Assembly: GCA_945897755.1 (NCBI GenBank)
Contig: CAMDGH010000012.1
Span: 1 to 41,754 of the forward strand
DNA from: Chryseobacterium gleum
GTDB lineage: Bacteria; Bacteroidota; Bacteroidia; Flavobacteriales_D; Crocinitomicaceae
Length of the DNA: 41,754 nt
Direction: 5' to 3'
Positions 30,179 to 31,675 of this stretch are shown in pieces; within the stretch, counting starts at the first letter, position 1; every line of letters begins with the position of its first letter. The notes below the pieces were generated by a model. The model was not told the origin of the DNA, searched no databases, and saw only the letters and a program-made list of their open reading frames with translations. The position numbers were made by a program, and so were the translations under genes.

Positions 30179-30537
30179 AGTTGCTTTAAATTTCGGTCAT
30201 ACTTTTTTTGTTCCCCGTTACTCTATTTTTTATTCCTAGTATTTAGTTTAAATTATACTCCTATTAAATGAGAAGCTTTACTCTTTCCACACCTAGATTC
30301 AGTATAATTTTTTTAAATAACATTTAAATGTCAAATATTTTCAATCTGTTATATTGTTGTATTTAATTGTAATTCAAATGTATATTCAATTTTAATTAGA
30401 TATAAACGAATAACAATCGAAAGCAAATGGTTAAAATTCGAATGTTTTTTGAAACTCACTACAACTTTGCACTGTCGATTAAAACAACTAAACAAACGAC
30501 GTTAAATCAATTTATTCATTTATTAAAAAAAACACCT

Positions 30538-30903
30538 ATGAACAGCTTAAAAAACAAAGTGAATTTAATCGGAAGATTGGGAGCTAAACCAGAAAAAAAA
30601 GAGGGCGAAGGGTATACGCTAGTAAGAGTTACATTGGCAACAAACGAAAATTTTAAGGATAAATCAGGGGAGTGGAAAACAACTACGATTTGGAATCAGC
30701 TAGTTGCTTGGGGTAAAACAGCTGATCGTATGTGTGAAGTTTTAGATAAAGGTGTTGAAGTCGCTATTGAAGGGCGTTTAGTTCAAAAGACCTTTGAAAC
30801 TAAAGATGGTGTTAAACGAACCTCTGTTGAAGTCGAGGTTAGTGATTTTTTATTAATACCATCAAAGAAAAGTAGTAATCAAGAAGTGCTAACTCAATCA
30901 TAA
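30538..30903 (+). CDS. Single-stranded DNA-binding protein (paralog 1), no acidic C-terminal tip
   Basis: NKVNLIGRLGAKPEKK...WNQLVAWGKTADRMCEVLDKGVEVAIEGRLVQKTFETKDGVKRTSVEVEVSDFLLI. Likely start at ATG 30538 (MNSLKN) rather than 30427. C-terminus ends SSNQEVLTQS. Confidence 0.85.
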   Translation: MNSLKNKVNLIGRLGAKPEKKEGEGYTLVRVTLATNENFKDKSGEWKTTTIWNQLVAWGKTADRMCEVLDKGVEVAIEGRLVQKTFETKDGVKRTSVEVEVSDFLLIPSKKSSNQEVLTQS

Positions 30904-30944
30904 TATTAAACTTATATAATAGTTATACTTTAATCTAAAGCATT

Positions 30945-31259
30945 ATGAATCACGTAAATTTAATTGGAACAATCTGTTCTGAACCAACGGTACACTTTTT
31001 AGCTAATGGAAGAAAAATAGCTCAGTTCTCGATGTCAACTCAAGAGCAGTATTTAGATGCTGAGGGGAATACTAAAGTTCAGCGTCAATGGCATCGAGTT
31101 AATGCTTGGGGGAATTGGGTAAAAGTACTAGAGGAGTTTGGTTCGAAAGGATTAAAACTAGCCATAGAAGGACGTTTGGTTTCTCGCTTTTATAAAAGTA
31201 TCGAGGGTAAGCGAAAGTTTGTTACTGAAGTTGAGGTAAACGATCTTATTATATTATAA
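30945..31259 (+). CDS. Single-stranded DNA-binding protein (paralog 2), OB-fold only
   Basis: MNHVNLIGTICSEPTVHFLANGRKIAQFSMST...VNAWGNWVKVLEEFGSKGLKLAIEGRLVSRFY...EVEVNDLIIL-stop. Confidence 0.85.
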   Translation: MNHVNLIGTICSEPTVHFLANGRKIAQFSMSTQEQYLDAEGNTKVQRQWHRVNAWGNWVKVLEEFGSKGLKLAIEGRLVSRFYKSIEGKRKFVTEVEVNDLIIL

Positions 31260-31312
31260 TTCAAGGCCTAATTCAACAATCTTATTTTTTTATTATCGAA
31301 TCAATTGTCTCC

Positions 31313-31675
31313 ATGCTAAATATGGAGACAATTTTAAAATCAAACGCTATGTATACATTTATAAAAAACACACTTGTTAATCAAGTCACTTTAGTTGGAA
31401 ATATGGGCGATTGTCCTAGGATATTTACAAATGATAATGGGTCCAAAATTGCACGATTTAGTTTGGCAACTGACGTAAAGTGTAAAGAGGGTAAAAAAAC
31501 AGAGTGGTATCCTGTATTTGCTTGGGGAAATATTGCTCATTTCTTGGAGAAATTTGGGGATAAAGGCAAAAAGATTATAATTACCGGTAAATTGGTTACC
31601 CGAACTTTTATGAATAAAGAGGGTATGCAGCAGAAAGTTACTGAAATTGAATTGAGGAACGTGATAGGTTTGTGA
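31313..31675 (+). CDS. Single-stranded DNA-binding protein (paralog 3), OB-fold only
   Basis: NQVTLVGNMGDCPRIFTNDNGSKIARFSLATD...FAWGNIAHFLEKFGDKGKKIIITGKLVTRTF...EIELRNVIGL-stop. Start may be an internal Met (31325 or 31349). Confidence 0.8.
   Translation: MLNMETILKSNAMYTFIKNTLVNQVTLVGNMGDCPRIFTNDNGSKIARFSLATDVKCKEGKKTEWYPVFAWGNIAHFLEKFGDKGKKIIITGKLVTRTFMNKEGMQQKVTEIELRNVIGL

Follow-up and report, generated by a model that had tools for sequence, protein, structure and literature searches.

Three consecutive plus-strand genes of the window (the whole 41,754-nucleotide stretch of DNA analysed here) encode single-stranded DNA-binding (SSB) proteins that all end just past the OB fold and carry no acidic tip, as an earlier note on this DNA had claimed. 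That observation is correct and, if anything, understated. The three products are almost certainly accessory ssDNA binders and, far more tentatively, are proposed to be a dedicated accessory ssDNA-coating system of the host family, the Crocinitomicaceae (Flavobacteriales), in which the products assemble into a single mixed oligomer. Descriptions of bacterial SSBs are of homo-oligomers in which the acidic tip organises replication and repair. An ordered, family-wide set of three different tailless SSBs would offer a natural setting in which to test whether bacterial SSBs can be heteromeric, and what coating of ssDNA achieves when the tip is absent.

The three open reading frames (ORFs; ssb1, ssb2 and ssb3, Table 1) are real SSB genes, as all match Pfam PF00436 well above the cut-off and also match NCBIfam TIGR00621 and solved SSB structures in the PDB. 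Their C-termini (...NQEVLTQS, ...EVNDLIIL and ...LRNVIGL, respectively) read the same here as reported before. The ssb1 product is a member of a Bacteroidia-wide lineage of tailless SSBs (the gene-1 type), as placed by alignment A3 and by the tree, while the hallmark of ssb2 is NHVNLIG...EVNDLVIL and its conservation is the highest among the three paralogs. The start of ssb1 is probably 30538; a longer ORF start at 30427 is unlikely because a conserved promoter-like block lies between it and 30538 and because the relatives start at MxxL(R/K)N. The ORF start listed for ssb3, 31313, is most likely not used, as it falls inside a perfect inverted repeat and the relatives begin near 'MNQVTLIGN'. 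The ssb3 start is instead placed at 31349 or slightly 3' of it; the first 8 residues of the 31349 form are of low confidence in the model.

Table 1. Features of the tailless ssb triplet and their positions in the window
Feature	Position	Strand	Description
ssb1	30538..30903	+	tailless SSB, 121 aa; PF00436 E 1e-24, alignment A3, tree
ssb2	30945..31259	+	tailless SSB, 104 aa; PF00436 E 5e-22, alignments A1/A5
ssb3	31349..31675	+	tailless SSB, about 100-108 aa; PF00436 E 2e-20, alignments A2/A6
promoter -7-like element CAACTTTG	30462..30469	+	inside conserved block CAACTTTGCANNGTCGA, upstream of ssb1
perfect 12-bp inverted repeat	31303..31333	.	ssb2-ssb3 gap; RNA hairpin -16.1 kcal/mol, z -5.6

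The promoter-like block CAACTTTGCANNGTCGA (30462-30478) lies about 60-75 bp before 30538 and is kept in 10/10 congeneric loci; the CAACTTTG within it is presumably an instance of the Bacteroidetes -7 motif TANNTTTG. The inverted repeat between ssb2 and ssb3 is a possible attenuator or processing site. An intrinsic terminator was considered for this gap and rejected, as the repeat is real but without a canonical T-run. Many loci of relatives (L102, L105, L110, L116 and L135) likewise have a stable RNA hairpin between ssb1 and ssb2 or between ssb2 and ssb3; the sequences of these hairpins differ, and the hairpins may serve to tune subunit ratios. A paper from 2010 notes the STAXI RNA motif close to SSB genes.

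Compact SSB folds are predicted by AlphaFold2 for the two proteins modelled, ssb2 (pLDDT 95) and ssb3 (pLDDT 89), and the top 50 solved structures retrieved by Foldseek with each model are SSBs (TM mostly 0.77-0.90). An acidic tip is found in 0/240 triplet proteins and in 38/38 housekeeping SSBs, and the residues beyond the fold number 10-26 in ssb1, 5-6 in ssb2, 5-7 in ssb3 and 42-59 in the housekeeping proteins. The positions equivalent to the E. coli ssDNA contacts W54, F60 (to W) and W88 (to Y) stay aromatic in the triplet proteins. Position 40 (E. coli W40) is aromatic in ssb1 and ssb2 and often lost in ssb3; thus, all four positions are mostly aromatic in ssb1 and ssb2, and ssb3 keeps three. 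The paralogs also differ at K7, I9, Q76 and Y78, which we take to be subunit-contact positions of E. coli SSB: (i) ssb2 has K7 replaced by H (99%) and I9 by N (100%), (ii) Q76 is E in 100% of ssb1 and K/Q/R in ssb3, and (iii) Y78 is absent from all tailless types and is Y in 100% of housekeeping SSBs. H55, also a subunit-contact position in E. coli SSB, where H55Y weakens the tetramer (PMC11947617), is Y in 24% of ssb3. To judge from these substitutions, the class-specific contact residues would fit distinct partner roles, perhaps with a charge-matched contact between ssb1 and ssb3.

The assembly has five SSB genes. The gene for the housekeeping SSB has mutY on one side and a gldE-like gene on the other, and its product ends in ...STDLDTFLF; the same protein ends in DLDELPF in most congeners and in DDDLPF or similar in the rest of the Crocinitomicaceae. 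The mutY-ssb-gldE site is occupied by this tailed SSB, in the host genome and across the family, and not by any gene of the triplet. Thus, the suggestion that the three proteins are not the housekeeping SSB holds, and the lack of any other ssb in the genome, which the earlier note had named as a refutation, does not apply, as a canonical tailed gene lies outside the triplet. The tip of the host housekeeping SSB (L002:1489-1932), DLDTFLF, is altered relative to the DLDELPF or ELDNLPF of the congeners seen. The fifth SSB ends in ...SIDEDDF and is present family-wide in the Crocinitomicaceae. This protein (L005:1483-1932; about 149 aa, MATVFETRLIGNIGKDA..., tip DEDDF) forms its own long branch, and its gene adjoins an amidase-like gene in several genera.

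Among the relatives searched, tandem triplets are found in nearly all congeners and in many genera of the Crocinitomicaceae, doublets occur in some relatives, and most other families of the order have a single tailless ssb of about 112 aa. When the genome collection was scanned with the ssb2 alignment, 80 loci came back, with names that include Crocinitomicaceae, Fluviicola, Brumimicrobium and Lishizhenia. The complete triplet, in one order and on one strand, is present in 79/80 of these loci and the remaining one is cut by a contig end, a figure that, being seeded with ssb2, gauges the co-retention of ssb1 and ssb3 given ssb2 and leaves genomes without ssb2 uncounted. On the strength of this conservation, the triplet is not a chance arrangement. 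Some family members have only two tailless genes (G015, G016, G019 and G022) or one (G014); thus, not every member needs the full triplet. The flanking genes vary outside the genus of the window while the triplet stays, which marks the triplet itself as the conserved unit. Reading the photolyase/peroxiredoxin/carotenoid neighbourhood as a DNA-damage operon was rejected, as this arrangement is convergent and confined to the one genus. In the loci of the scan, the two intergenic gaps have medians of 22 bp and 18 bp. By longest-ORF start, ssb1 and ssb2 abut or overlap in 18/79 loci, and in 11/79 they share exactly 4 bp or 1 bp, as is typical of translationally coupled genes. Four loci (L118, L120, L125 and L132) have an insert of 388-500 bp between ssb2 and ssb3 that apparently encodes a small four-helix-bundle-like protein (DLIAWQKGH...). 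A Crocinitomicaceae triplet is also contained in CP034120 (L158), which is titled as a Glaciecola amylolytica chromosome and may be mislabelled.

In a tree of 114 SSBs the paralogs cluster by their place in the row and not by organism, from which it follows that the duplications predate the radiation of the family. Support is 100 for ssb2 (plus one doublet gene) and 86 for ssb3, while ssb1 forms one side of a weakly supported branch (35). This ancient, position-specific paralogy bears out the specialisation that the earlier note had proposed. The dN/dS values of 0.01-0.11 for each of the three genes, taken from close genome pairs, place all three under functional constraint by strong purifying selection. 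G038, from a different family of the order, has an array of three such genes whose copies form one group of their own (support 92); as this expansion is separate, tailless SSBs expanded in tandem more than once. Other families of the Bacteroidia, too, have pairs or triplets of tandem tailless SSBs that arose independently (G062, G075, G098, G105, G071, G172 and G194). A few gene-1-type SSBs bear an LPF tip (L188:2948-3313, L213:3787-4167 and L220:319-891). The genomes outside the Crocinitomicaceae with gene-1-type proteins of this ending include G104 and G094; thus, the tailless state is not absolute outside the family.

In Bacteroidia outside the Crocinitomicaceae, the single tailless ssb is often divergent from a gene for a protein of ~120 aa with an N-terminal zinc ribbon (CxxC...CxxxC), such as L179:2331-2714 (-). 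The zinc-ribbon protein has no Pfam match above the cut-off (DUF2116 is just below) and no relative in the PDB. Across 80 genomes, the gene-1-type tailless SSB and the zinc-ribbon gene (presence at E < 1e-20) are both found in 55, the SSB only in 1, the zinc-ribbon gene only in 0 and neither in 24, where the SSB type, if the sequence was not fetched, is judged by the start of its match to the ssb1 profile. The Fisher p-value for this co-occurrence is 1.5e-19 and ignores shared ancestry. Contrasts within families are concordant (G057/G095 in f29, G072/G106 in f44, G075/G109 in f47 and G104/G070 in f42), as is that of family f21 with its genus g131; the contrast of G066/G100 in f38 is concordant but weaker, as G100 gave no SSB of any kind. 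G191 is discordant, with the zinc-ribbon gene present and a tailless SSB not found, and G032 is an exception that has the tailless SSB with just a partial zinc-ribbon match. None of 45 sampled genomes from the phylum's other classes has the zinc-ribbon gene. In the Crocinitomicaceae it does not adjoin the triplet, and the host genome has the homolog (L236:3373-3735 (+)) on a different contig, where it diverges from a MoxR-type operon. The zinc-ribbon protein is likely a partner or regulator of the tailless SSB system, and the tight pairing of the parent tailless SSB with this unnamed protein offers two concrete genes through which an undescribed ssDNA pathway of the Bacteroidia could be tested.

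The triplet is proposed to have arisen by duplication of a gene-1-type tailless SSB that was already in the Bacteroidia beside the tailed housekeeping SSB. Ssb1-3 would join in one mixed oligomer that covers and protects ssDNA and, without the acidic tip, recruits none of the partners of the housekeeping SSB. Because a tailless oligomer would avoid the housekeeping SSB interactome, it would hold a special pool of ssDNA, which may be incoming DNA in transformation or intermediates of recombination or repair; the zinc-ribbon protein would work with the oligomer as its likely partner or regulator. This pathway is suggested by analogy with Bacillus subtilis SsbB and by a single genus in which ssb and dprA are in tandem. 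Assembly of the three products into a mixed oligomer, to which we give slightly less than an even chance, is consistent with the strict retention of the triplet, the overlapping genes and the class-specific residues. Each paralog could instead make its own homo-oligomer, in which case three separate SSBs with condition-specific duties would be adjacent only through co-regulation. This possibility is a serious one, if doubtful: every paralog retains the DNA-contact aromatics, some genomes have just two tailless SSBs or one, the inter-gene hairpins suggest unequal expression levels, and the gene-1 type stands alone in most other Bacteroidia. By contrast, the strict order and co-retention in 79/80 of the ssb2-seeded loci, despite shuffled neighbours, favour a joint product, as do the start/stop overlaps. 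The mixed oligomer invites comparison with the replication protein A (RPA) heterotrimer, in which three different OB-fold ssDNA binders cooperate. The likeness is one of analogy, as homology is limited to the OB fold, an RPA-type large subunit is not present here and the heteromer is conjectural in the triplet; distinct subunits that are encoded and kept together (79/80 ssb2-seeded loci, positional orthology) are a feature shared by both. That the triplet encodes an RPA-like hetero-oligomeric SSB, reached independently and acting with an unrecognised zinc-ribbon partner in a Bacteroidia-wide ssDNA pathway, is a rather doubtful extension.

Whichever way the subunits assemble, the triplet could be a competence SSB set that shields imported ssDNA and hands it to DprA/RecA; this reading can be true together with a mixed oligomer or with separate homo-oligomers. 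The counterpart would be B. subtilis SsbB, a short paralog without the acidic tail that accompanies the tailed SsbA and acts in transformation (PMC3976300). Unlike the triplet, SsbB is a single gene, and the three diverged paralogs do not have competence genes adjacent; linkage to such genes is not seen in the Crocinitomicaceae neighbourhoods. In G088 a gene-1-type ssb precedes dprA by 74 bp on the same strand, and G176 has this arrangement as well, yet it is confined to one genus (g72). The tandem spans L176:2545-4100 and is likewise seen in L264. ComEC and DprA (each in 63/64 genomes) are near-universal in the class, even without a tailless SSB; thus, their co-occurrence cannot discriminate. 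The paper on a Riemerella transposon screen names DprA and ComEC, and a search of its text gave no SSB among the hits (PMC8459023). A role in transformation is accordingly unlikely for the triplet as a whole; of the specialisations suggested in the earlier note, competence keeps a hint, from two species of a single distant genus in which ssb and dprA are in tandem, and a relation to phages or mobile elements is not supported. That the triplet is left over from a phage, plasmid or integrative element, or is carried by one, is very improbable, even though phages often carry SSBs and PHROG phrog_44 matches all three proteins: inheritance is vertical and family-wide with positional orthology, integrase or phage genes are not seen nearby, and the phage matches of ssb2 are all below 60% identity (35-37% for the best among the matches listed). 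A phage or defence origin was rejected on the lack of a close phage relative and of a PADLOC hit. A replication-restart factor, in which a tailless SSB derivative acts in the primosome as PriB does, is improbable. PriB, too, is an OB protein that resembles SSB and lacks the tail (PMC8509808), and at about 104 aa it resembles ssb2 in length. PriB identity was rejected on the structure search, as the top 50 solved structures for each of the two modelled proteins are SSBs and not PriB; the PriB family is not matched and the DNA-binding aromatics of SSB are retained.

Single tailless SSB paralogs are already known, as exemplified by B. subtilis SsbB and by Alr0088 and Alr7579 of Anabaena (PMC3976300). 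The Anabaena proteins consist of the OB fold only and are dimers by gel filtration, with the tailed All4779 encoded elsewhere in the genome (PMC3976300). These truncated SSBs differ from the triplet in being two separate cyanobacterial genes and not three, and a conserved triplet is not described for them. In the literature searched, with most subscription journals outside, nothing relevant was found on tailless or tandem SSBs in Bacteroidetes, nor was a row of three paralogs or a link to a zinc-ribbon gene. Among the best sequence and structure matches of the triplet proteins is the SSB of Salinibacter ruber (PDB 5odn), which, unlike a tailless paralog, continues far past the OB fold in a chain of 196 aa.
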